A DNA stretch of 64,000 nucleotides from Moorella glycerini (GTDB lineage: Bacteria > Bacillota > DSM-521 > Neomoorellales > Neomoorellaceae). Positions 8,946-58,201 of this stretch are shown in pieces. The position numbers were made by a program, and so were the translations under genes. The stretch covers positions 2,914,001 to 2,978,000 of the forward strand of contig NZ_CP046244.1 in the NCBI RefSeq assembly GCF_009735625.1, given 5' to 3'. Every line of letters begins with the position of its first letter. Position 1 is the stretch's first letter. The notes under the pieces were generated by a model. That model searched no databases. It saw nothing but the letters and a program-made list of their open reading frames with translations, and was not told the DNA's origin.

Positions 8946-9794
8946 TTATTTCTGCAGGCAGTAAAGGGAGGGCAACCATCCAAACTTTCCAGCCAGGGCT
9001 GCGTATTGAGGCGCTGTAGCCCCCAGGGCCACCAGTATAGCTTCCATGGCATTGGCCGCCGGGCTGAGACCCTCGAAGACGGGGGTTGTTGCCAGGAGCC
9101 AGGCAGCCCCGCGCCGGCGCAGGAGTTCCCGGTCGCCGGGCGTGGTACCACTGGTAATAACTACTTTGCCGGCCAGAGAAACAGGTAGATGGCGACGGAT
9201 AAAATGCCAGTCCCCGGCAATGATTTTGACCCTGGCGAAGAGATGACGGTAATGGGGGTGCGATTTTTCCTGGTCATGCCCCAGAGGGTAAAGGTAGTCC
9301 AGGGGTAAATGGGCCAGCAAGGGCATGGTTAAATAACCCAGGATCATGAAGGTTGATAAAGGAAAGCCAAGGGGGAGATTTAAACCAAAGGCAGCATCCC
9401 CGGCCAGGACGGGATAGCCGGCTGCCTGTAAAGCCCGGGCCAGCCAGAAGCGGTCCAGGACGGAAACTACCAGCGCCCTGCTACCGGGGGGTAAAAAAGC
9501 CAGCTGGTCTATGGCCCGGGGCTCCACCCATTGCTTCCAGCCAGAGCCATCCACCAGGGGGGTCTCTTTAACCTGGTGGGCTAAATACCGGCCTGCCGGG
9601 CAGGGATAACACCGCGAACCCAGGTGGTAGTAAAAATTGGCGCCACCCAGCCCCAGGGCATCCACCCGTCCATCCAGTTCCTTAAGAAGGCGGGCCGCCA
9701 GGTCCAGGCGGCCATTGCAGCCGCGCCGTTCCAGGAGGATTGTCTCCTGGCCGCAGTTCAGCTTTACCTGGTAATCCCTGCTATTAGTACCCAA
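8946..9794 (-). CDS. Protein of the family annotated as quinate 5-dehydrogenase; real activity unknown
   Basis: The 282-residue frame contains ELDGRVDALGLGGANFYYHLG, ETPLVDGSGWKQWVEPRAID and AGKVVITSGTTPGDRELLRRRGA. This pattern matches a Firmicute family commonly labelled quinate 5-dehydrogenase on weak grounds. The only standard start in this frame is TTG at 9794, which has no ribosome binding site. The residues just upstream, IKHVVSIS, continue the family's usual N-terminus, so translation may begin at a non-standard ATC (9818-9816), five bases after the TAG of the upstream gene and behind GAGGGAG. I therefore regard the annotated start as uncertain. Confidence 0.5.
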   Translation of the reverse strand: MGTNSRDYQVKLNCGQETILLERRGCNGRLDLAARLLKELDGRVDALGLGGANFYYHLGSRCYPCPAGRYLAHQVKETPLVDGSGWKQWVEPRAIDQLAFLPPGSRALVVSVLDRFWLARALQAAGYPVLAGDAAFGLNLPLGFPLSTFMILGYLTMPLLAHLPLDYLYPLGHDQEKSHPHYRHLFARVKIIAGDWHFIRRHLPVSLAGKVVITSGTTPGDRELLRRRGAAWLLATTPVFEGLSPAANAMEAILVALGATAPQYAALAGKFGWLPSLYCLQK

Positions 9795-10674: not shown

Positions 10675-10826
10675 AACCCCCGCCTCCTCCGGTGTTTTGT
10701 ATACACCATCCTGTCTTCAGGATAACACCTGAAGGAGGAAAATGCAAGGGGAAAATTAAAGGTTGCTGAAAAAGTTATCAGGATAGGAGGAAAGGTAAAA
10801 AATCGCAGGGCAGATATAAACGTTAT
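10675..10826. other. Intergenic leader with nested inverted repeats
   Basis: Upstream of the 42-residue gene two small inverted repeats follow each other: ATCCTGTCTTCAGGAT and GGTGTTTTGTATACACC. They lie between the corrinoid protein stop (10827) and the small gene. They could form a leader or an attenuator. No gene is seen here. Confidence 0.35.
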
Positions 10827-11486
10827 TTAACGCACCAGGCCTTTTACTACTCTGACAGCTTCAATAGCATCATCAGCATAGCCATCGGCGCCTATACTGT
10901 CTGCAAAGGCCCGGCTTACCGCCCCGCCTCCTACCAGGACGGCAACATTTCCTCGCAGACCTTCTTCCCGCAAGAGGTTTATCACATCCGCCATCCTATC
11001 CATCGTGGTAGACATCAGAGTAGACATGCAGAGTATCCTGGCACCGGTTTCTTTCACTCCGGCAACAAAGTCACCGGGAGGTACATCCCGTCCTAAATCA
11101 TATATTTTAAACCCGGCTGCTTCCAGCATTAATTTAACTAGATTTTTCCCTATATCGTGAATATCCCCTTCGACTACCCCGATAACTGCAGCCACCTGGT
11201 TAGGTGTATTTTGGGGCGTTATACGGGAAGACAGGATATTCAGGCCGGCATACATTGCATCTGAACACAACAGTAGCTCGGGTACAAAATATTCCCCTTC
11301 TTCGTAAAGTCGTCCCGCTGCTCGCATCCCTTCCAGTAACCCTTCATTGATGGCTTTTAAGGGATCAATATTGTTGGCCAGAGCCTCCCTCGCTGCCTTG
11401 ATGGTAAGCGCTTCATCCATGTCTCTGACCCCCGCAGCTAGCAAGTTTAGTATTGCTTTATCAGTAGCCAAACGATACACCCCCAT
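10827..11486 (-). CDS. Corrinoid methyltransferase protein (MtaC/MttC type)
   Basis: The 219-residue protein has the two domains of methanogen and acetogen corrinoid proteins. Residues ~1-90 form a helical cap (NNIDPLKAINEGLLEGMRAAG, EYFVPELLLCSDAM). Residues ~95-215 form the Rossmann-like cobalamin domain with the histidine ligand motif GDIHDIGKNL, then LGRDVPPGDF and VLVGGGAVSRAFA. It would accept a methyl group from a substrate-specific methyltransferase and pass it to tetrahydrofolate or another acceptor. It is three bases from the DUF362 gene upstream. No MtrH-type methyltransferase is adjacent, so the UroD-family protein at 16570-17664 is the nearest candidate partner. Confidence 0.85.
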   Translation of the reverse strand: MGVYRLATDKAILNLLAAGVRDMDEALTIKAAREALANNIDPLKAINEGLLEGMRAAGRLYEEGEYFVPELLLCSDAMYAGLNILSSRITPQNTPNQVAAVIGVVEGDIHDIGKNLVKLMLEAAGFKIYDLGRDVPPGDFVAGVKETGARILCMSTLMSTTMDRMADVINLLREEGLRGNVAVLVGGGAVSRAFADSIGADGYADDAIEAVRVVKGLVR

Positions 11487-11489
11487 AAT

Positions 11490-12563
11490 TCAAAGCTTGA
11501 TGAGTTGATACTCGCGACTACCCAGACCAATTGTCTCAGCATATTCCAGCATGTAGAGGCCATTTACCCCTGTAAAATCATGAAGGGCTTTTTCTGGATA
11601 AACGGCTTTAATGTGCATATCTACCAGATCATAGCTTGCCTGCTCTATGGCAAGGGGATCAGTGCCTGCCAATATGCCGATATCGTGGATAATCGGTAGA
11701 GGGCTCCAGGAGCGGCAGTCGCAAAAGGCAGTAATATCCACCAGGAAACTAACAAAAAAAGCTCGCCCCTTTTTATTAGCTAAGACTGCAGCACAGGATT
11801 CCACTAGTTTACGTTGCATATCCTTATCATCTCTTGCCCAATTAACAGGTATTGCCTTTCGTGGGCATATTACCAGGCAATCACCGCAGTTATTGCAGTT
11901 GCCCTGTTCGATGAACGCTTTGCCTTCTTCAATTGCAATGGCCTTCACCTTACAAACCTCTACGCACTTGCCGCAACCGTTACAGAGGGACGTCTCAACA
12001 ACGGGTTTCATGTGGGAATGGATGGCCTGTTTTCCAGGCCGAGCGATAGCTCCCATCCCCAAGTTTTTAATAATACCTCCGAAGCCTACATCATCATGAC
12101 CCTTGAAATGGGTAACAACGACTAACTTATCAGCTTCGTAAATAGCTGATCCCACTTTGACTTCGCTTAAACCTTCCCGGGCCCTGGCTAGTCTGTAGTC
12201 CAGACCTTTAAGGCCGTCGGCTATAATTAGGGGCGCCCCCATGGCCGCCTGGTCGTAACCATTGAAATTAGCTGTTTCCAGGTGACAGACAGCGTTAAAT
12301 CTGCCCCGGTAAAACAGGGTGTTGCAGTCCGTTAGAAAAGGATGACCACCCCTCTCTTTCACTAACTGAATAATTATTTTTAAGAACTGCGGTCTGAGCA
12401 TTCTGGTATTACCCAGCTCACCAAAATGGAGTTTGATGGCAACTAGGTCACCTTCTTCAATTATCTTATTTAAACCCGCGTGGTTACAAAGCCTTTTTAA
12501 CTTGTCGAGGACACTATCGCCTCGTGTTCCTTCAAAGTTAACAAAAAATACCTCGCCGCCCAT
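11490..12563 (-). CDS. DUF362 protein with two 4Fe-4S clusters
   Basis: The 357-residue protein starts with the DUF362 fold (KIIEEGDLVAIKLHFGELGN, FLTDCNTLFYRGRF, VVVTHFKGHDDVGFGG). A 2x[4Fe-4S] ferredoxin insert at about residues 195-240 carries CNGCGKCVEVC and CNNCGDCLVICP. DUF362 ferredoxins are often found beside corrinoid and C1 genes and are assumed to supply electrons. Here it precedes the corrinoid protein by three bases, so reductive reactivation of Co(II) corrinoid is a sensible inference but is not shown. It lies downstream of the terminator at 12598-12626 and may be reached by read-through. Confidence 0.8.
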   Translation of the reverse strand: MGGEVFFVNFEGTRGDSVLDKLKRLCNHAGLNKIIEEGDLVAIKLHFGELGNTRMLRPQFLKIIIQLVKERGGHPFLTDCNTLFYRGRFNAVCHLETANFNGYDQAAMGAPLIIADGLKGLDYRLARAREGLSEVKVGSAIYEADKLVVVTHFKGHDDVGFGGIIKNLGMGAIARPGKQAIHSHMKPVVETSLCNGCGKCVEVCKVKAIAIEEGKAFIEQGNCNNCGDCLVICPRKAIPVNWARDDKDMQRKLVESCAAVLANKKGRAFFVSFLVDITAFCDCRSWSPLPIIHDIGILAGTDPLAIEQASYDLVDMHIKAVYPEKALHDFTGVNGLYMLEYAETIGLGSREYQLIKL

Positions 12564-12597
12564 ATCCAGTCACCATAGTATTGGATTAATTTATGGA

Positions 12598-12626
12598 CAA
12601 AAGCCGATGAGCGTTTCGTCATCGGC
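12598..12626 (-). terminator. Terminator after the substrate-binding protein gene
   Basis: GCCGATGA (12603-12610) and TCATCGGC (12619-12626) form an eight-pair stem, followed on the minus strand by TTTT. It separates the transporter/kinase/PsuG part from the DUF362-corrinoid pair. The short T run suggests partial read-through. Confidence 0.7.
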
Positions 12627-12649
12627 CTGTCATTCTAATGAAGTATTGC

Positions 12650-13723
12650 CTACTTCCATCCTTCAAAAGAGTTCACATTCTCCCTATCTACAATTGCCAA
12701 GGGGGTCCAGTAAATCTCTTGCTTTATTTCGTGCCCTTCCAAAACTTTCAGGGCAAGTATTAGGCCACCTTTGCCAAAAAGGTAGGGTGACATAGCCACT
12801 GAGGCATCTAATTCTCCTTTGGCTATGGATTTACGGGCATCATCGATAAAATCAACGCCAACCACTGTTACCTGGTCTTTCTTACCAGCTGCCTTGAGGG
12901 CCTCCACAGCGCCCAAAGCCATAACATCGTTGGCACAAAAGATGCCCTTCAGGTCGGGGTGAGCCTGAATAAGGTTGGCCGCTATATTATAAGCCTTTTG
13001 CCTGTCCCAGTTACCCGGCTGGATTGCCACCAGGGTAATATCTTTGTTACCTTCAAAGGCTTTCTTAGCACCTGTTTTCCGGGCCTCACTCTGGGCTGCA
13101 CCGGGGAGCCCTTCAATTATCGCCACTTTGCCAGCACCTATTTTTTTAATTATATACTCGGCACCCAGTTTACCCTGATCTTCAAAATTGGAGGTAATAA
13201 AAGCCTGGACCCTGGCCCCCGCTCTGGTAGCTGCTTCCTGGTCTACACTGGTACCCACTGCGACAACCGGTATGCCTTTTTTTGTGGCTGCAGCAACGCC
13301 TGGGACCAGGTTAAACGGTGTAATAGCCGAGATAGCAATGGCGTTATAATCTTTGCTAACAATGGTTTTCAGAGTTTCTAGTTGAGAATTTACATCATCT
13401 TCTTTGGGGGCGGACATCACATCTACTGTTACGCCATATTCTCTGGCTGCATCTTCATACCCTTCTTTCACAGTAACCCAAAATGGATTGGCCAGGGTAA
13501 TTAACAGGGCAGCAATTTTATATTTTTGCGAGGCTTTGGGAAGGGGTTGCAGGGATTCTAGGAGCTCGGCTTCCGCTTCTTTAAAGGCTTTATTTTTCAC
13601 AGTTGCCGGGGGTTGGGTATTGGTGGTTTGGGGGTTGTTATTCGCAGTTCCCCCTTTGCCTGAACAACCCGCTATACCTATCAATAGGACAAATACTAAC
13701 GCGAATGCCAAGAACTTCCGCAT
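12650..13723 (-). CDS. Sugar/nucleoside ABC transporter substrate-binding lipoprotein (RbsB-like)
   Basis: From the ATG at 13723 (GGAG upstream) the protein has 357 residues. A lipoprotein signal (MRKFLAFALVFVLLIGIAGC) ends in the lipobox IAGC, then a Gly/Asn/Pro-rich linker, then a type-I periplasmic binding fold of the ribose-binding family (NAIAISAITPFNLVPGVAA, GIPVVAVGTSVD, KAIFC-like GIFCANDVMALGAVEAL, VTVVGVDFIDDA). It would be anchored outside the membrane and deliver a pentose, hexose or nucleoside to the permease at 18486-19448. Placing the binding protein at the end of the operon, after the catabolic genes, is unusual. A longer frame upstream has no ribosome binding site. Confidence 0.88.
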   Translation of the reverse strand: MRKFLAFALVFVLLIGIAGCSGKGGTANNNPQTTNTQPPATVKNKAFKEAEAELLESLQPLPKASQKYKIAALLITLANPFWVTVKEGYEDAAREYGVTVDVMSAPKEDDVNSQLETLKTIVSKDYNAIAISAITPFNLVPGVAAATKKGIPVVAVGTSVDQEAATRAGARVQAFITSNFEDQGKLGAEYIIKKIGAGKVAIIEGLPGAAQSEARKTGAKKAFEGNKDITLVAIQPGNWDRQKAYNIAANLIQAHPDLKGIFCANDVMALGAVEALKAAGKKDQVTVVGVDFIDDARKSIAKGELDASVAMSPYLFGKGGLILALKVLEGHEIKQEIYWTPLAIVDRENVNSFEGWK

Positions 13724-13816
13724 ACTTAAAGTCTCCACCCTCTCTTTTTGAATATATTTATCACCAAACAAGTATACCTGTTGGCGGCCCTTCTTTAAGG
13801 CCCCCATTTTATTGTT

Positions 13817-14797
13817 TTATTGATTATTCCTGGTTAGAAAAGAATTCACCTCCTCTAAACTGGCCTTGAAGCGGGCACCCAGCTGGGTGCACTTGATTGC
13901 CCCGCAAGCGTTAGCAAATTCCAGCGCCCGTTGTCGCCCCATCTCCTGGCAGAAATAGGCATATATTAGCCCTGCAATAAACGCATCCCCCGCTCCTGTT
14001 GTATCAATAGCTTGGATGTTAAAAGCCGGGGCAAATATGCTTGTCTTATCTCCCAACCACCAAATTGCTCCTTGGGTGCCACAGGTAGAAACTATTCCTT
14101 CAGTGGGCCGGTAACGCTGGTAGAGCGTCTGGCCGGCAACCTGCGGGTCCTCAACTCCTGTGAGTTCAAAGAGTCCCTCCCGGGACATGCAAAGCAGATC
14201 GCAAAGAGAGATCATCTCCTCAATTTCTGCCATGGTTACCCGGCATAGTTGCATAAAGGAGGGGGCGCACTCCAGGTTGAAGAAGACTCTAACGCCCAGC
14301 TCGCGGCTGAGACGGGCCAATTTAAGGGCAGGCCGGCCGGGGAACATGTCTGTATAAAAGACCTTTACTCCCTGTAACATTTCGGGAACTACCTCATCTT
14401 CCGCCAGGTCTAACAAGCTATCGCCCAGGTGGCAGAAAATAGCCCGCGCACCATTTGGAGCCAGCGTTACGAAGGTGTGAAGGGTAATGCCGCCGGGACG
14501 GGTAAAGAGGTATCTGGCGCATACACCTGACCTGACTATATCTTCCCGGAAGGCTTCTCCGTATTTGTCGTCGCCAATTTTAGCTACCAGGCTGGTGTCC
14601 ACTCCCATCCTGGCCAGGGCTACCAGCACGTTGGCGCAGCTTCCTCCCGGAAAGAGGCTCTCATAATGGACAAAAGCAAAGCCGTCTTCCCGGGGTAAAC
14701 TTTCACATTGCAAGACAATATCCATTGCGGCAGTACCCAGCCCTAGTACTTTCATCCAGTACCAATCCACCCTAGCTTTGCCTGTTTTAGTTTTCAC
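13817..14797 (-). CDS. PfkB-family carbohydrate/nucleoside kinase
   Basis: The 326-residue protein shows the PfkB layout: GLGTAAMDIVLQCESLP at the start, the substrate motif FPGGSCANVLVALARMG, and near the C-terminus the anion-hole signature DTTGAGDAFIAGLIYAY with the catalytic Asp. The family phosphorylates ribose, nucleosides and related sugars. Beside a PsuG-like gene, a pseudouridine-kinase (PsuK)-like role is the obvious suggestion, though substrate cannot be read from sequence. The GTG start overlaps the stop of the upstream YwlG-family gene (GTGA). Met15 (MKVLGLGTAAMD) is the start most relatives would use. Confidence 0.85.
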   Translation of the reverse strand: MKTKTGKARVDWYWMKVLGLGTAAMDIVLQCESLPREDGFAFVHYESLFPGGSCANVLVALARMGVDTSLVAKIGDDKYGEAFREDIVRSGVCARYLFTRPGGITLHTFVTLAPNGARAIFCHLGDSLLDLAEDEVVPEMLQGVKVFYTDMFPGRPALKLARLSRELGVRVFFNLECAPSFMQLCRVTMAEIEEMISLCDLLCMSREGLFELTGVEDPQVAGQTLYQRYRPTEGIVSTCGTQGAIWWLGDKTSIFAPAFNIQAIDTTGAGDAFIAGLIYAYFCQEMGRQRALEFANACGAIKCTQLGARFKASLEEVNSFLTRNNQ

Positions 14798-15345
14798 TGC
14801 CCCGGGTATTTAGCACGCGCGCCCCCAATCAGCTTAGGGCGCGTACGCGCTGCAACTATCCGGGCACCACCAATATATTCATTAGCCAGGAGGAGCGGCT
14901 TCACTACCGGTTTCAAATGCATTCCGATCATCGTTAAGCCAATGTCAATGCCCAAATCCGCTGTAATACTCTCTACCACTACCGGATTCTTAAAAAAATG
15001 TTGGTAAGCAACAGCGGCAAAGGTTCCCCCCGCTTCCGGGACGGGAATAACACTTACCTCTACCAGCCCTTTTTCCACCATTAATTCCCGCTCAACTATC
15101 AATGCCCGATTCAAGTGCTCGCAGCATTGTACAGCTATCTGTATTTCGGGGGGACAAAATTCCCAGATAGCCCGGCAGATAACTGCGGCCAGGTGAGGGT
15201 CGCCGGTGGTATCTTCACGGCGTCCTTCAACGCGGCTGATGCTGCACGAAACCACGAGGATGGCACCCGGGTTATAAGTGCCAGGGGTAATAAGTTCCTT
15301 AAGAACTTCCCGCGTCTGAAAGTAAATCTGCTCATCCCTCGCCAT
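14794..15345 (-). CDS. YwlG/UPF0340 (TIGR01440) family protein
   Basis: The 183-residue protein begins MARDEQIYFQTREVL after AGGAGG, and carries family motifs including LVVSCSISRVEGRR, VAVQCCEHLNRALIVER-like IAVQCCEHLNRAL, and DIGLTMIGMHLKPVV. Family length is about 180 residues. Its activity is unknown; in Bacillus subtilis ywlG lies near ribose-5-phosphate isomerase and uracil salvage genes, which fits a link to nucleoside breakdown but proves nothing. Its start lies inside the end of the preceding dehydratase-like gene (14-base overlap) and its stop overlaps the kinase start, so translation is coupled. Confidence 0.8.
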   Translation of the reverse strand: MARDEQIYFQTREVLKELITPGTYNPGAILVVSCSISRVEGRREDTTGDPHLAAVICRAIWEFCPPEIQIAVQCCEHLNRALIVERELMVEKGLVEVSVIPVPEAGGTFAAVAYQHFFKNPVVVESITADLGIDIGLTMIGMHLKPVVKPLLLANEYIGGARIVAARTRPKLIGGARAKYPGQ

Positions 15346-16519
15346 ATTTTTTCCTCCTGAAATTATTCTCAATAACCATTTCGATAAAGGCGCCTATCCT
15401 GACACGCAGGTTTTCCCGATCTAAAGTAGAGTAGTCTGTTTCCAATTGCAAAAACGGCAGCCCAAAATGGTTTTTGATTAAATCTGCCACAAAATAGGAC
15501 TCTATATTGTAGGTATGACAGGCTCGCCAGGTTAAATCTATTACACCATCAACCTGGAAGTCTCTCACCATCTGTCGGAGGAGTTCTAACCTTCTCCCGT
15601 TAGGGGACATTATTGAACATGGTATTTTAAGATATTTTTCAGCGAGAAGCAGGAGAGGGTCGCGCTGGTCGCTTTCATCTATCTTTAAACCGACTGTCTT
15701 GTAACCGCTACAGTTTTCCATAGCCACCACCAGCCCACCGCACTCTTCGACCAAGGCGACCACTTTTTCACTCCCCACGCCAACCGGCGTGCCGGTAAGT
15801 AAAATCCGGGGTGTCTCTGAATCCCCTACACAATAACCCCGGGCAGCTAGGCTTTTGATCTCATCTACCATACGGTCGAGTAGTTTGATACGTTCCCACC
15901 TGTCAATGTGAAAACCGAGCTGCCAGCTTACCGTGACCAGATCCATACCAGAAATCATTGCCGGGCGTATCATGTTGAGATCAAAAAGAGCTTTTAAGGC
16001 CCGGTTACCCTCATTAATCACATGAATGGCCTCGCGTAGCGATTGCTCTGTTATCTCGACTTGTAAAAACTGTTCCAGGGCCTTTTTAAGCCTTATCATT
16101 TCTCCGTATAAAAGTTGTATGGAAGCGGGCTGGTCAGCTACCTGGGGGAGGTGCATTACATGCAGCGGCTTAAACCTGCCCATGAGTTCGAACATCTTTT
16201 TTTTACCGTCACAGGTCGTTTCTCCGACGACCATATCCGAAAGGTGAAAATAAGGGCAGGTATCACTTACAGCAAATCCATATGATGACTTAATCAAAGG
16301 GCAAAGGTTGTGAGGCAGGTCCTTTTCTGCTGCTTGAATGGGTTCCTGCCTGGTACCACAAAGCCCCACAGGAATAGCCCCCGCAGCCAGCACCAGCTCC
16401 CGGGGACCATAGGTGCAATATATGCCCACTACCTTGGCACCATTTTCCTTAGCCTCCTTCAGCGCCATCAGGTTTTGCTCACGTAAGCCATCAAAGGATG
16501 CCAGCATACTGGGTTTCAT
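15332..16519 (-). CDS. 2-hydroxyacyl-CoA dehydratase-like double-cubane cluster protein
   Basis: The 395-residue protein belongs to the HgdB/COG1775 group. Cysteines lie in the conserved contexts GIYCTYGPREL, HNLCPLIKSSYGF, ETTCDGKKKMFEL and WRACHTYNIES, which is the set seen in double-cubane (8Fe-9S) proteins. Such proteins carry out very low-potential reductions and need an ATP-driven activase. Classical dehydratases have two such subunits; only one is encoded here, which favours a double-cubane reductase over a true acyl-CoA dehydratase. It sits between the methyltransferase and YwlG-family genes in the catabolic operon. The electron donor and substrate are unknown. Confidence 0.75.
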   Translation of the reverse strand: MKPSMLASFDGLREQNLMALKEAKENGAKVVGIYCTYGPRELVLAAGAIPVGLCGTRQEPIQAAEKDLPHNLCPLIKSSYGFAVSDTCPYFHLSDMVVGETTCDGKKKMFELMGRFKPLHVMHLPQVADQPASIQLLYGEMIRLKKALEQFLQVEITEQSLREAIHVINEGNRALKALFDLNMIRPAMISGMDLVTVSWQLGFHIDRWERIKLLDRMVDEIKSLAARGYCVGDSETPRILLTGTPVGVGSEKVVALVEECGGLVVAMENCSGYKTVGLKIDESDQRDPLLLLAEKYLKIPCSIMSPNGRRLELLRQMVRDFQVDGVIDLTWRACHTYNIESYFVADLIKNHFGLPFLQLETDYSTLDRENLRVRIGAFIEMVIENNFRRKKYGEG

Positions 16520-16569
16520 CTGCTCCGGTTCTCCAATCTTAAAAGTTTACTTTGGTAAATATTTACCCG

Positions 16570-17664
16570 TTAATTCAGCCTCTCGGGATCAATCGGCATC
16601 CTGCCGTAGATTCGTGCCGCCTCCATAAGGGCCAGAATATTGTCAGGGGGCGTGTTTAAAGCAACGGAACACCCCGAGCCCAGGATAAAGCCCTTGGGGT
16701 TGTCAAAAGCCTGGCGTATACATTCCTTCGCTGCAGCGAGGACTTCATCCCTTGTTCCGTGTAGAAGAACTTCCACCGGTGCCACGTTACCTTTGAGGGC
16801 CACCCTTGTCCCCACAGCCCTTTTAGCTTCCTCCAGACTCACCTGGTTATCCAGACTGATGGCACTTACGCCCGTGTCGACCATGTCTGCCCAGATAGCC
16901 CTGGTATCACCACAGATATGCAGTGAAGGTCCGCTACCACATGCCGCCTTGACCCAGGCGGCGATCTTGGTCAGGTAGGGCTTAACAAATTCCCGGAAAT
17001 GGCGGGGGCTAATAACGCTGGCCGAAGCCAGCGGGTCACCTATACTGCAGGAAAAGCCCCTTTTTCTGGCTGCTTCTATGTAGTTGATGATGCTTCGGGT
17101 AGTCAACTGTAACAGGCTGTGGACGAACTCGGGGTTTCTACGTAAGTCTTTAAGAAAATCCTCGACCCCTCTTAGAAAAGCAGCCGTGGTAAAAGGGCCA
17201 CCTATTCCTGTACCTACCGGGACCTGGTGACCTATACTTTCATTGATGATTTCCAGTGCTTCCAAATAAAGGGGGAGCCGGCCGGCATGTTCAGCATCAA
17301 CTGGTTCCAGATGGCTGATTTCACTATAAGAGCGGATGGCCGGTTCCGCCAGCTGGGGACGGTCATTGTCTGGAAACCGTAGTCTGGCTCCCATTGCCTC
17401 TGCCAACCCATAAAAATTAGGCCCTACACCGACGGAATCATATTGATAAATTTTAAAGGCAATTATATGGGCCTCTGCCATCAAGCGCGAGGAATGACAG
17501 TAACGGGCCACCGAAACACCTATCAGCCGGCAGACGTGCTCCGAAATACTGGGACTGCAGGGTATACGGTCTACCGGTAAACCTTGCTTAAAGGCTGTCA
17601 TGCGCTCCAACGGGGTCATGCGATCTTTAAACTCCATATGCAGGTAATCTCCTATCCCTCTCAC
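16570..17664 (-). CDS. UroD/MtaA-family methyltransferase
   Basis: The 364-residue protein has the uroporphyrinogen-decarboxylase fold used by corrinoid methyltransferases (MtaA, MtbA, CmuA). Zinc-site motifs are visible as LHICGDT (His and Cys, about residue 250) and LGSGCSV (Cys, about residue 330). True UroD enzymes lack this zinc set, so a methyl transfer role is much more likely than haem synthesis. It may demethylate a substrate onto the corrinoid protein at 10827-11486 or move methyl groups from it. Met10 (MEFKDRMTPLERM) is the likely start. It is nine bases from the PsuG-like gene and shares its operon. Confidence 0.78.
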   Translation of the reverse strand: MRGIGDYLHMEFKDRMTPLERMTAFKQGLPVDRIPCSPSISEHVCRLIGVSVARYCHSSRLMAEAHIIAFKIYQYDSVGVGPNFYGLAEAMGARLRFPDNDRPQLAEPAIRSYSEISHLEPVDAEHAGRLPLYLEALEIINESIGHQVPVGTGIGGPFTTAAFLRGVEDFLKDLRRNPEFVHSLLQLTTRSIINYIEAARKRGFSCSIGDPLASASVISPRHFREFVKPYLTKIAAWVKAACGSGPSLHICGDTRAIWADMVDTGVSAISLDNQVSLEEAKRAVGTRVALKGNVAPVEVLLHGTRDEVLAAAKECIRQAFDNPKGFILGSGCSVALNTPPDNILALMEAARIYGRMPIDPERLN

Positions 17665-17672
17665 TAAACTTC

Positions 17673-18479
17673 TCAGTGTAAGCTAAGTGCCAGATCGATG
17701 TTGTCCATCAGAGAACGCAGCTGCAATATGGAAGCTTTGCCTCCGGTAAGGCGGTCAAGGGCAGCGTTTACGGCCGGGTGAAATTGACGCATTTGCCTGG
17801 CTGCCGCTTCCCCCTGCGCTGTAGCATTAGCCAGGATGGTACCATCGGTGAAACGCAAGCAAAGAGGCAGGGGGTTTAAGATCAGACATGGGCCATTCTT
17901 AATGAGCTCCTCAACCTTTTGGCCGCAATAAACCCCGTCCAAGGGAAAACTTTCTTTTATGAACAGAAAACCGTTGCACTGATCGGTACCATTACCAATT
18001 AAACACACTCCTTGCCCTCGCAGGTAGCCCAGGGTGGCTGGCAAATCCAATGTATCTTTAGGAGAACTGGCTACCAGGACAATGGGCATCTGGCTCAAGG
18101 TTACCAGATCATTAGATAAAATTTTTCCTCTAATTCCTCCCATACCGGCAGTAACTACAATAAAGTTTCCTGTTTGAGCCGCAACCCTCATTACTGCCGC
18201 GGCGGTCATATAGCCACTAACCCTTTCTCTTATGGCCACCGAAAGGTTGCTGGCATCGATGCGCTCCATATCTGGATTACCCCTAAGCTGCAGAAACTCC
18301 TTAATGTTACCGAAAGTAATCCGCCCATTTTCCAGCCACACCAGAGCTATGGAGGTGCTATGTCTCCATTCTCGTAAAATATAGTCATTGGTGAGGGATG
18401 GTAAACCCTGACCCAGCAAGGCAGTTTCGATCAAAGCCTTCCTGGTATGCCGCACCTTTTTTCCTTGCATCATGGTCAT
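17673..18479 (-). CDS. Pseudouridine-5'-phosphate glycosidase (PsuG) homologue, divergent
   Basis: The 268-residue protein follows PsuG along its length: ALIETALLGQGLP (usually ALESTIIAHGMP, with the catalytic Glu), SVAIRERVSGYMTAAAVM (usually PVA.ARG..GATTVAATM), VVTAGMGGIRGK, SSPKDTLDLPATLGYL (usually AKSILDLPLTLEYL, with the Schiff-base Lys retained), IGNGTDQCNGF, and LILNPLPL (Asn retained). However the KVSRRDL motif, which supplies a second catalytic Lys, reads RIDASNL here, and the HRG metal region is shortened. It is about 40 residues shorter than typical PsuG. PsuG splits the C-C bond of pseudouridine 5'-phosphate into uracil and ribose 5-phosphate; this relative probably acts on a different glycoside. 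Confidence 0.72.
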   Translation of the reverse strand: MTMMQGKKVRHTRKALIETALLGQGLPSLTNDYILREWRHSTSIALVWLENGRITFGNIKEFLQLRGNPDMERIDASNLSVAIRERVSGYMTAAAVMRVAAQTGNFIVVTAGMGGIRGKILSNDLVTLSQMPIVLVASSPKDTLDLPATLGYLRGQGVCLIGNGTDQCNGFLFIKESFPLDGVYCGQKVEELIKNGPCLILNPLPLCLRFTDGTILANATAQGEAAARQMRQFHPAVNAALDRLTGGKASILQLRSLMDNIDLALSLH

Positions 18480-18485
18480 AAAGAT

Positions 18486-19448
18486 TTAATCACCACTTGT
18501 CCGGGATTTTAATTCAGTTACGAGGACAGTTGCGAGGATAATCACACCTGTTGTTAACTGTTGATAGTAGGAGGCAATTCCATGAATGGTCAGCCCGTTA
18601 TGTAATACCGCCAAAAGGAGACCTGCAAGCACAGTACCCCCTATACTCCCCCTGCCGCCTTTTATGCTAGTTCCTCCGAGAACTACCGTGGCAATAGCAT
18701 CTAGTTCCATCATATATCCAGCCGTAGGATCGGCACTGTTAAGCCTTGCGGTCAGCACTAACCCTGCTAAAGCCGCGGTAAGAGCCCCAAGCATATATAC
18801 AATAATTTTAAAAGTTACTGTGGAAACTCCGCATAAACGCAGGGCTTCTTCATTGCCACCCAGGGCCAGAGTATAATAACCTAGCTTCGTATTGTACAGG
18901 ACAAAAGCACCCAGGATGGCGACCAGCGCAGCAATAACAACAGGAACAGGGAATATGCCCACCTCTCCGCTCCCGAACCATGTAAAGCCTTCCGGAAAGC
19001 TGGAAATAGGGATGCCTTTGGTAATAATTAAGGTCAGACCCCGGATAGCGGACATTGAAGCCAGGGTAACAATAAATGGGTTTAAACGGGATAGCGCTAT
19101 AAGGGACCCATTAATTAATCCAACTATTAACCCTACGGCCATCCCCATAATAATGGAAGCAGCTACCGAAAGGAACCAGAAATGCATGGCAACAGCCATA
19201 ACTACACCACTTAAAGCAACTATAGCCCCTGCCGAAAGATCAATGCCGCCGGAAGAGATTATTAATGTCATACCAACGCCAAGGATAATATTAAGGGTAC
19301 TTTGGTCCAATATATTTCTCAAGTTTTCCCATCGCCAGAAAAAAGGAGAGGACAAGGATAAAGTAATTACCAACAGCAATAATAGCCCAAATAGGATTGT
19401 CTGCACCGAGTTTATCTGCAACCAGACGTGCGGCTTAACCCGCGCCAT
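18486..19448 (-). CDS. Sugar/nucleoside ABC transporter permease (RbsC-like)
   Basis: The 320-residue protein is hydrophobic with about eight to ten membrane helices. It carries the branched-chain/ribose permease signatures LIISSGGIDLSAGAIVALSG and TVVLGGTSIKGGRGSIGG, the second being the cytoplasmic loop that contacts the ATPase. It forms the membrane channel for the binding protein at 12650-13723, with the ATPase at 19492-20241. It precedes the PsuG-like gene by six bases. Confidence 0.9.
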   Translation of the reverse strand: MARVKPHVWLQINSVQTILFGLLLLLVITLSLSSPFFWRWENLRNILDQSTLNIILGVGMTLIISSGGIDLSAGAIVALSGVVMAVAMHFWFLSVAASIIMGMAVGLIVGLINGSLIALSRLNPFIVTLASMSAIRGLTLIITKGIPISSFPEGFTWFGSGEVGIFPVPVVIAALVAILGAFVLYNTKLGYYTLALGGNEEALRLCGVSTVTFKIIVYMLGALTAALAGLVLTARLNSADPTAGYMMELDAIATVVLGGTSIKGGRGSIGGTVLAGLLLAVLHNGLTIHGIASYYQQLTTGVIILATVLVTELKSRTSGD

Positions 19449-19491
19449 GGAGCTTAAATCACATCCCCGATCTAACTGTTTGCGACTTATT

Positions 19492-20241
19492 TTACGTTCC
19501 TGTTATTAGTTTTACTATCTCATCGGGACTGGTGTCACGAACAATAAAATGCCCCACAGATTCACCGTGTCGGAGGACACAGATGCGATCAGCAATAGAA
19601 AACACCTGCTGAAGGTTATGGCTGATTAAAATTACGGCATAACCTTGCTCCCTGAGGGTATTAATTAAGGCCAACACCTGTTTTGTTTCTTGAAGGCCCA
19701 TAGCCGCCGTCGGCTCATCAAGAATCATAACCCGACCACCCTTATGGATGGCCCTGGCTATAGCTAAAGCCTGACGCTGGCCACCTGACAGGCTGCCGGC
19801 GAGAACATTTATTACAGGGATATTTACCTTTAACCTTTTCAGAAGTGAAGCTGTTTCAATTTCCATCTTTTTCTTGTCAATTAGAAAACCGGCCCGCGTC
19901 GGTTCCCGGCCCAGGAAGACATTGCTGCAAATATCGCGGCAGTCGACAAGAGCCAGATCTTGATATACTGTTGTAATACCGTTCTTTAAAGCCTGCGCTG
20001 GAGTCAGTTGCTTAAAAAGCCTCCCGGCTATGTAAATTTCGCCTTTATCAGGTTTGTAAACCCCGGATAAAATCTTGATCAGGGTCGACTTGCCAGCACC
20101 GTTGTCCCCCATCAGGGCCAGAACCTCGCCCTCGAATACATCGAGGTTTACTCCCCGCAGGGCCACGATGTGTCCGAATGACTTCCATAAATTGCGGGCG
20201 CGCAGGATTGGCCTGGCGTTTCCGGGTGTAAGTACGGCCAT
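19492..20241 (-). CDS. Sugar/nucleoside ABC transporter ATP-binding protein, single domain
   Basis: The 249-residue protein has one complete ATPase domain: Walker A GDNGAGKST, Q-loop region TTVYQDLALVD, signature LSGGQRQALAIARAIH, Walker B RVMILDEPTAAM and the switch His in ILISHNLQQV. RbsA-type proteins normally have two such domains in about 500 residues, whereas this one has only the first, as in FrcA-like half-size ATPases that work as dimers. It is the first gene of the operon and is preceded by about 250 bases of AT-rich DNA. Confidence 0.9.
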   Translation of the reverse strand: MAVLTPGNARPILRARNLWKSFGHIVALRGVNLDVFEGEVLALMGDNGAGKSTLIKILSGVYKPDKGEIYIAGRLFKQLTPAQALKNGITTVYQDLALVDCRDICSNVFLGREPTRAGFLIDKKKMEIETASLLKRLKVNIPVINVLAGSLSGGQRQALAIARAIHKGGRVMILDEPTAAMGLQETKQVLALINTLREQGYAVILISHNLQQVFSIADRICVLRHGESVGHFIVRDTSPDEIVKLITGT

Positions 20242-20676: not shown

Positions 20677-20752
<76 letters not shown>

Positions 20753-20757
20753 ATAGA

Positions 20758-20834
20758 TGGCGCGCCCGGCAGGATTCGAACCTGCGGCCTCCGGACTCGG
20801 ATTCCGTTACTCTATCCACCTGAGCTACGGGCGC
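20758..20834 (-). tRNA. tRNA-Arg (anticodon CCG)
   Basis: The 77-base gene includes an encoded CCA. The acceptor arms GCGCCCG/CGGGCGC pair fully. The anticodon loop ATCCGAG carries CCG, with T33 in place; the stem has one A-G mismatch at its base. The T arm is GCAGGTTCGAATCCTGC. It is separated from tRNA-Lys by five bases and shares its terminator. Confidence 0.93.
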
Positions 20835-56294: not shown

Positions 56295-58201
56295 TAGCCT
56301 TCCCTCCTTTGCGGGCTGGTCCCACCGGTTACGGAGGGAAAGAGTTCCAGCTGGGTATGGGGCAGGAACAGGGCCGAGACAAATTCCTCCATAAAGAGGT
56401 TGCCGGCGGAAAGCTCCAGGTAGGTCATCTTGTGGCCCAGTTCCAGGGCTTCCTGCCAGGCCGGCCGGGAAAGGAGGGCCAGTTCGGCACCTTTGAGGGA
56501 AGTGTTGCCGGCAAAGACGTATTTTTCCGCCGGTAAATCGGGTAAGAGGCCGATTTCAACGGCATTGGGAACGTGCAGGTAATTGCCGAAACCGCCGGCA
56601 ATGATAATCCTGTCGACTGCTTCCAGTTCCAGGGAGACGGTCTTTAACAGGCTCTGGATGCCGGCAAAGACGGCTCCCTTGGAGCGGATGAGATTTTTGA
56701 TGTCGGCGGCGGTAATGACGATATCCTTGCCGTGGCTGCTTTCTGCCGCCCAGGCCAGGACAAACTCGTATCCTTCATCAGTAAGCCTTAGCCGGGGTGT
56801 GGCTACTTCATGGAAGTTACCGGTCCGGTCGATGATGCCGGCCCGCCTGAGCTTCGCCAGGCAGTCAATTAAACCACTGCCACATAGACCGGCCGGACGG
56901 CCGCCGCCGATTACCTCCAGCTCGACTTCAAAGGTTTCCGGGTCGATGGTTACTCCTTCAACTGCTCCCTCCATGGCCCGCATACCGCAAGTGATGCCGC
57001 TGCCTTCAAAGGCCGGCCCCGCCGAACAGGCGCAGGATATGAGCCAGTCCTTATTCCCCAGGACCATTTCCCCGTTGGTGCCAATGTCAATGAAGAGGGT
57101 TAGTTCTTCTCCACCGGCAATGCGGGTAAAGAGGGCACCCGCGACAATATCGCCGCCCACATAGCTGGCTACGCTGGGGAAGACCTGGACGGTAGCCAGG
57201 GGATTAATGGCCAGCCCGATTTCCCCGGCAGTGAGGGCCGGCCACTCGGTAGCAGCAGGGATATAGGGTTGCAGGCGGATATACTTGGGATTTACGCCCA
57301 GCAGCAGGTGGCTCATGGTAGTGTTGCCGGCAATGACTGCTGCCGTCACCTCCGCCTGGTTAATCCCGTGGTTGGCCAGTAAAGAATTACTTATCTCATT
57401 AATGGTGGCCAGGGCCGCCTGGCGCAGCTCCTCCAGGCCCCCATGGTTACTGGTGGCGTGGATGATGCGGGAAATGACATCATCTCCATATACCGCCTGG
57501 CGGTTATAACTACCGCCCTGGCCAATCCTCCGGCCGTTACGCAGGTCCAGGAGGGAGACTACTACCGTCGTGGTACCCAGGTCGATGGCCAGGCCAAAGT
57601 TCCTGCCTGACCCGGCAGGGGTAACCCGTAAGAGGCGGTTATCAGCCCTGGCCAGGGTGACATCAACCTGCCAGCCGGCCTGGCGCAAGCTCTCCGGCAA
57701 ATCCTGGAGAAGGGCTAAGCTCACCTGCCCCTCCACCCCTTTTTCCTTGCGCAGGGCCGTCAGCAGGCGGCTGGTATCACTGGTGTTTTCCGTCAGGGTA
57801 GGCTCGGCGAGATGCAAGGTTACTACTTCACAGGCAGCCTCCAGGGGATAGGAACCCAGTAAATCAGTCAGGCCGTCCTGCAGGCGCCCCTTGTCCTGGA
57901 GGAGCACCTGGTGTTTGCTGAGGAGGGATTCTGCCGGGATCTCGATGGCCACATCGCCCTGGATGATGGTCTGGCAGGCCAGGGTATAACCCTCTTCCTT
58001 CAATTTGGCCGGCAGGTGTCCTCCTTTAACCTGAACCTCTCCCCGGCGAACTTTAATGATACAGCGGCCGCAGGTACCGGCACCACCGCAGGTACTTTTC
58101 AGGGGCAGGCCGGCCTTTTGGGCCGCCTCCAGGACGGTGGTACCTGCCGTTACCTGGACCTGGATATTATCAGGTATGAAGGTGACAGTAAAGTGCTTCA
58201 T
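56294..58201 (-). CDS. RACo, reductive activator of the corrinoid iron-sulfur protein
   Basis: The 635-residue protein has an N-terminal 2Fe-2S domain (LKSTCGGAGTCGRCIIKVRR, with Cys38, Cys44, Cys47 and a fourth Cys further on), a linker and a DUF4445 ASKHA ATPase (GLAIDLGTTTVVVSLLDLRN, ITAAVIAGNTTMSHLLLGV, TLFIDIGTNGEMVLGN, IIAGGFGNYLHVPNAVEIG). RACo uses ATP to reduce inactive Co(II) CFeSP. Its start overlaps the acsC stop by four bases. Confidence 0.93.
   Translation of the reverse strand: MKHFTVTFIPDNIQVQVTAGTTVLEAAQKAGLPLKSTCGGAGTCGRCIIKVRRGEVQVKGGHLPAKLKEEGYTLACQTIIQGDVAIEIPAESLLSKHQVLLQDKGRLQDGLTDLLGSYPLEAACEVVTLHLAEPTLTENTSDTSRLLTALRKEKGVEGQVSLALLQDLPESLRQAGWQVDVTLARADNRLLRVTPAGSGRNFGLAIDLGTTTVVVSLLDLRNGRRIGQGGSYNRQAVYGDDVISRIIHATSNHGGLEELRQAALATINEISNSLLANHGINQAEVTAAVIAGNTTMSHLLLGVNPKYIRLQPYIPAATEWPALTAGEIGLAINPLATVQVFPSVASYVGGDIVAGALFTRIAGGEELTLFIDIGTNGEMVLGNKDWLISCACSAGPAFEGSGITCGMRAMEGAVEGVTIDPETFEVELEVIGGGRPAGLCGSGLIDCLAKLRRAGIIDRTGNFHEVATPRLRLTDEGYEFVLAWAAESSHGKDIVITAADIKNLIRSKGAVFAGIQSLLKTVSLELEAVDRIIIAGGFGNYLHVPNAVEIGLLPDLPAEKYVFAGNTSLKGAELALLSRPAWQEALELGHKMTYLELSAGNLFMEEFVSALFLPHTQLELFPSVTGGTSPQRREG

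Follow-up and report, generated by a model that had tools for sequence, protein, structure and literature searches.

The window, i.e. the whole stretch of 64,000 nucleotides of the Moorella glycerini genome analysed here (NZ_CP046244.1, positions 2,914,001 to 2,978,000), carries ten minus-strand genes downstream of a tRNA-Arg/tRNA-Lys pair, beginning with the ATPase of an ABC importer and ending with a corrinoid protein:

20677-20834 (-): tRNA genes for Lys(ctt) and Arg(ccg), next to the island and probably its site of integration
19492-20241 (-): half-size ATPase (249 aa) of an ABC importer of the CUT2 sugar type; YtfR/AlsA/RbsA-like, under the equivalog cut-offs
18486-19448 (-): ABC importer permease, ribose/allose type; 246 bits with the ribose permease model, under its cut-off
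17673-18479 (-): PsuG/IndA-like glycosidase (PF04227); E18, D124 and K141 align with active-site residues of PsuG
16570-17664 (-): UroD-superfamily methyltransferase, MtaA/MtbA-like; His249-Cys251-Cys332 zinc motif of the thiol/selenol type
15332-16519 (-): double-cubane cluster protein (DCCP), 395 aa; gene 5 of the ten-gene operon, eight invariant cysteines
14794-15345 (-): DUF436 protein (TIGR01440, YwlG family)
13817-14797 (-): PfkB-family sugar/nucleoside kinase, ribokinase-like, below the equivalog cut-offs
12650-13807 (-): sugar-binding lipoprotein, nearest to the D-allose-binding protein; sugar contacts retained except Asp to Gly and Gln to Met
11490-12563 (-): DUF362 protein with 2x[4Fe-4S] ferredoxin; possible electron donor
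10827-11486 (-): MtbC-like methyl-carrying corrinoid protein

The original prediction had seen a sugar/nucleoside operon here, and indeed the importer, the PfkB kinase, the PsuG-like glycosidase and the sugar-binding protein are encoded together. It had also placed the DCCP gene between a methyltransferase and a kinase. The UroD gene does adjoin it, but the DUF436 gene intervenes before the kinase, so that the direct neighbours of DCCP are UroD and DUF436. DUF436 probably starts at the ATG at 15345, within the end of the DCCP gene, and AGGAGG at 15353-15358 precedes this codon. The corrinoid protein and the ferredoxin-DUF362 protein, absent from the prediction, belong to the operon as well. 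The PsuG-like protein reached 67.7 bits with PF04227 (threshold 25.2), and the UroD protein 207 bits with the MtaA/CmuA model TIGR01463 (cut-off 235.4). A canonical pseudouridine pathway was considered and set aside as unlikely, the operon kinase scoring 31 bits with the PsuK model where the cut-off is 540. The operon holds a single UroD and a single corrinoid protein, a RACE gene was not detected in it, and there were no Sao proteins among the scanned operon proteins. Elsewhere in the window (56330-57106) lies a RACo-type corrinoid activator, the best RACo match of the genome. In an Rfam scan for riboswitch control the tRNAs alone reached the gathering score, and scans for promoters and terminators gave results no better than shuffled sequence.

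The operon (10827-20241) is a low-GC island, probably acquired at the tRNA site: its GC content is 45-52% compared to 54-59% in most flanking stretches, the tRNA pair stands at its border, and in three congeners (G001, G005, G009) the operon is missing from that place, the tRNA and the DUF3786 flank lying close together. In G001 another segment, which carries an excisionase-like gene, is found near the same tRNA remnant. An open reading frame of 282 aa without a Pfam match (8946-9794 of the window) is kept in most congeners.

The double-cubane cluster protein and its missing partners

The reading frame at 15332-16519 is intact, carries every cysteine motif on which the assignment to the COG1775 double-cubane family had been based, and matches Pfam HGD-D at 1e-113. 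With NF040772, the NCBIfam equivalog model 'double-cubane-cluster-containing anaerobic reductase', it scores 500 bits (cut-off 350). Its nearest solved structures are DCCPs (6ENO, 7YYL, 7YZM; Carboxydothermus hydrogenoformans), with which it shares fold, eight conserved cysteines and a single-gene family at 37% identity. Unlike the Carboxydothermus protein it has no N-terminal extension of ~45 residues and no adjacent DCCP-R gene, and it sits in a corrinoid/sugar operon. Cysteines 35, 54, 73, 88, 103, 270, 301 and 334 are invariant across 50 aligned DCCPs. The [8Fe-9S] cluster of BzdN is ligated by six cysteines (PMC11971306); as judged from the alignment, the eight invariant residues are candidate ligands. 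A structure model built from 34 relatives (pLDDT 92) superimposes on 7YZM and 6ENO with Z 50 and an rmsd of 1.6 Å over 378-379 residues; the matches to BzdN (Z 44) and HadC (Z 42) rank lower. The reading frame has no internal TGA, hence the protein contains no selenocysteine. The gene thus encodes a DCCP, as the prediction had it, a family whose biological role was still called unknown in 2025 (PMC11971306).

It might be argued that a member of this superfamily is simply an ordinary subunit of a 2-hydroxyacyl-CoA dehydratase or benzoyl-CoA reductase. This has practically no chance of being right and is largely ruled out already: the protein reaches 104 bits with HadC (cut-off 700), 76 with BzdN (454) and 48 with BcrC (421), its fold is closer to DCCP, and a second HGD-D subunit is not encoded in the operon. 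A paired dehydratase was rejected on the same scores. The HGD-D pair that the genome does encode, at 2139484-2141770, comes with its own activase. This pair (locus L017, 5461-10684; chromosome positions 2139484-2142564 and downstream) lies immediately upstream of genes which, read from sequence alone, resemble methylthioribose-1-phosphate isomerase and methylthioadenosine phosphorylase, and a link of a dehydratase-like pair to methionine salvage might be possible.

The operon encodes neither a second subunit nor an activase, as had been noted. To see the single gene as an oddity was not justified: DCCPs are homodimers (PMC11971306), so the lack of a second subunit is expected, and activase genes occur in trans in 9/9 operon-bearing genomes checked. 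The Moorella genome has four activases, besides other HGD-D genes, all outside the operon. All four are candidates; the one at 2141803 gives the best match, being 49% identical to an activase adjoining a DCCP of the subfamily. The genome also encodes a second, canonical DCCP. The DUF2229-type gene at 1-605 of the window had been suggested as a co-varying partner. We rejected it as a specific DCCP partner: the array to which it belongs is present in 17/17 genomes searched, in congeners with and without the operon, and therefore does not co-vary with DCCP.

Relatives of the operon and joint decay

A scan of GTDB contigs for DCCP relatives yielded 80 loci, and further loci came from PsuG-like searches. 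Orthologous operons with a DCCP were found in Ca. Formimonas warabiya (L060), a Syntrophomonadaceae MAG (L075), a Bacillota MAG (L099) and two further genomes (G063, L157; G118, L160), and partly in another (G157, L162). Neither hydroxyglutaryl nor double-cubane proteins are mentioned in the main text of the strain DCMF metaproteome (PMC9768040). In a tree of 92 DCCPs the window protein belongs to a supported clade (SH-aLRT 96) that holds sugar-operon DCCPs only, five of them from five families. We counted neighbourhood labels as changes on this tree, with gains and losses taken together. The sugar-operon label needs at least three changes, because L099 and L162 fall outside the window clade, and adjacency to a UroD or corrinoid gene needs at least eight. 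Such recurrent neighbourhoods point to a working link between DCCP and the UroD/corrinoid pair. A UroD gene or fusion lies near only 17/92 DCCP loci, however. UroD adjacency and activase adjacency showed an opposite trend on the tree, which was not significant.

Several related loci deserve mention in their own right. A UroD-corrinoid fusion adjoins DCCP in three Moorellaceae relatives (L053, L054, L055), with a taurine/sulfonate-type ABC importer, by sequence, in L053 and L054 and YedE nearby in L053 and L055. ADP-ribosylglycohydrolase-type genes stand beside related ABC/PsuG-like operons in L169, L170, L073 and L162 (PF03747 confirmed in L162 and L170), hinting at ribosyl compounds. Four ABC/PsuG-like operons (L163, L164, L166, L168) have no UroD, corrinoid or DCCP gene; the three readable binding proteins (L163, L164, L168) are of a different subtype (Gly-Pro, Tyr) and probably serve another ligand.

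The operon of the sister strain G002 shares 98-99% identity with that of the window and is partly decayed. Its UroD gene has a premature TAA at codon 28, its DCCP gene a frame-shifting deletion of 503 bp (15844-16346) and its corrinoid gene a deletion of 567 bp (10774-11340), whereas the remaining seven genes, sugar genes included, are open; a 2-bp gap in PfkB lies ahead of the probable start. An independent assembly, G003, shows the corrinoid deletion with the same ends and has the canonical DCCP only. The joint breakage of three genes suggests that their products (UroD, DCCP, corrinoid protein) make up a sub-module of their own, which can be separated from uptake and from cleavage of the sugar. 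As the lesions are few, this evidence is suggestive: the argument rests on three lesions in a draft assembly with 6% contamination, and the two operons differ by too few changes for dN/dS.

These observations bear on two other roles that DCCP could have. One is that DCCP and its activase replace RACE/Ram and reduce inactive Co(II) to Co(I) on the corrinoid protein of the operon. The operon and its orthologues have a corrinoid protein, with no RACE found in the operon, and both the joint decay and the recurrent adjacency would fit. However, the genome has three RACo-type activators, one of them inside the window, 76/91 DCCPs of the subfamily lack a UroD/corrinoid gene at a distance of up to two genes, and SAO (selenocysteine-assisted organometallic) type loci such as L049 have a DCCP without a nearby UroD or corrinoid gene. 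We therefore consider this role unlikely. The other, in line with the original argument from gene placement, is that DCCP acts on the imported sugar or nucleoside itself, by reductive dehydroxylation or ring reduction. At least three DCCP lineages do have, independently of each other, a sugar-type operon, with the PsuG-like, PfkB and sugar-binding proteins conserved. Against this, DCCP was lost in G002 alongside UroD and the corrinoid protein while the sugar genes stayed open, most DCCPs are far from sugar genes, and L169 and L170 have PsuG, importer and UroD without DCCP. A direct action on the sugar thus has only a small chance of being correct. Placement does give a hint, as had been proposed, but the strongest one to function comes from the UroD-corrinoid pair, through joint decay and recurrent adjacency, rather than from the kinase.

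Association with selenium-using genomes

Among 398 Bacillota genomes SelD is present in 114/117 with and 147/281 without DCCP (OR 35, kinship ignored). RACE, a corrinoid activator chosen as a control for anaerobe type, gave an OR of 2.2 in the same set. The association holds within both RACE classes: SelD occurs in 92/94 DCCP-positive compared to 68/123 DCCP-negative genomes with RACE, and in 22/23 compared to 79/158 without it. Beyond Bacillota, 28/29 DCCP genomes have SelD; the phylum of the Dehalococcoidia genome G409 does not discriminate, because its SelD background is 118/151 (78%). YedE, YedF, SelD or DUF3343 lie within 9 kb of 14/92 DCCP loci and SAO genes near 10/92; that selenium genes adjoin so few loci, and that there are none in the window's own operon, speaks against a selenium role. 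Kountz & Balskus had provisionally linked DCCP to selenium, and showed that a UroD-type Mlp protein methylates selenide (PMC10418091). What our analysis adds to their work is the magnitude of the SelD association and the RACE control.

Since DCCP is nearly limited to SelD genomes irrespective of its neighbours, and a second, canonical copy exists in this genome, it might be a general house-keeping reductase of selenium or sulfur, unrelated to the imported compound and simply located in the operon. Yet the clade of the window protein consists of sugar-operon DCCPs only and its gene overlaps DUF436, which makes this role distinctly improbable.

Substrate and possible role of the operon

All operon UroDs carry the His-Cys-Cys zinc site, which has been tied to S/Se methyl transfer by Kountz & Balskus (PMC10418091). 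In the binding protein Asp is replaced by Gly in all operon versions, and Gln by Met in operons with UroD and by Tyr in operons without it. If these positions are taken, by analogy with RbsB/ALBP, to be sugar contacts, the changes to Gly and Met would fit a sugar whose substituent is unusual and less polar. The PsuG-like protein retains the residues aligning with Glu, Asp and Lys of PsuG, which we take to be catalytic.

In our preferred reading, which we regard as a real possibility though short of probable, uptake of a methylated sugar or nucleoside, probably a seleno- or thio-compound, feeds a corrinoid demethylation module, and DCCP serves this module as its ATP-driven reductase. The importer would take up a methylated sugar or nucleoside with a soft heteroatom, most likely as methyl-selenide or methyl-thioether; the kinase would phosphorylate it and the PsuG-like glycosidase would split the glycosidic bond. 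The His-Cys-Cys UroD would then transfer the methyl group to cob(I)alamin of the corrinoid protein, from where it may enter the Wood-Ljungdahl pathway, the organism being a probable acetogen. UroD, corrinoid protein and DCCP would form a three-protein module joined to importer, kinase and glycosidase. The DCCP homodimer would act as a low-potential, ATP-dependent reductase, switched on by a DCCP-R-type activase encoded elsewhere, and contribute a reductive step such as breakage of a C-Se/C-S bond or release of selenide or sulfide; the electrons would reach the double-cubane cluster with ATP via the activase, perhaps from the DUF362 ferredoxin. The substrate and the order of these steps, as well as the bond and the activase partner, are our proposal, built around what was observed: the protein's family and fold with its cysteines, the operon and its island, the joint decay, the recurrent neighbourhoods and the SelD association.

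Parts of this arrangement are known from other systems. Type 1 mlp clusters, like the window operon, have a His-Cys-Cys UroD and a corrinoid protein without a folate methylase, and some carry DCCP and DCCP-R (Kountz & Balskus, PMC10418091). In contrast to these clusters, with at least two UroDs, the window operon has one, has no Ram/RACE, and adds sugar importer, kinase and glycosidase. Some SAO operons, e.g. L049, hold a DCCP with 67% identity; the window operon lacks the SAO importer and accessory genes and has a sugar-type importer instead. PsuG/PsuK pseudouridine catabolism likewise unites a PsuG-like glycosidase and a PfkB kinase in one operon, but the PsuG-like protein of the window is a short, distant relative (42 bits to 4GIJ), the kinase scores far too low with the PsuK model, and UroD, corrinoid protein and DCCP are added. 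The SdmABC methyl-selenide system of methanococci resembles the window operon in its corrinoid protein and UroD-type methyltransferases, whereas SdmABC acts on dimethyl selenide with no sugar importer reported (PMC11097638). We did not find an operon of this type described in the literature searched. Hence the DCCP family is known and the operon type is apparently undescribed.

In conclusion, our data narrow the role of DCCP through a partner set of UroD and corrinoid protein and a strong tie to selenium-using genomes. The binding protein of the importer lends itself to purification and a ligand screen, so that the long-standing question of the DCCP substrate becomes directly testable. A more specific version of the preferred reading, which we think rather unlikely as it stands, is that the operon is dedicated to scavenging selenium (or sulfur) and a methyl group from sugars or nucleosides that carry a methylseleno or methylthio group, with DCCP as its C-Se/C-S (or Se-methyl) reductase. 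If this were true, such an operon would give a DCCP-type double-cubane enzyme its first physiological role and substrate class.
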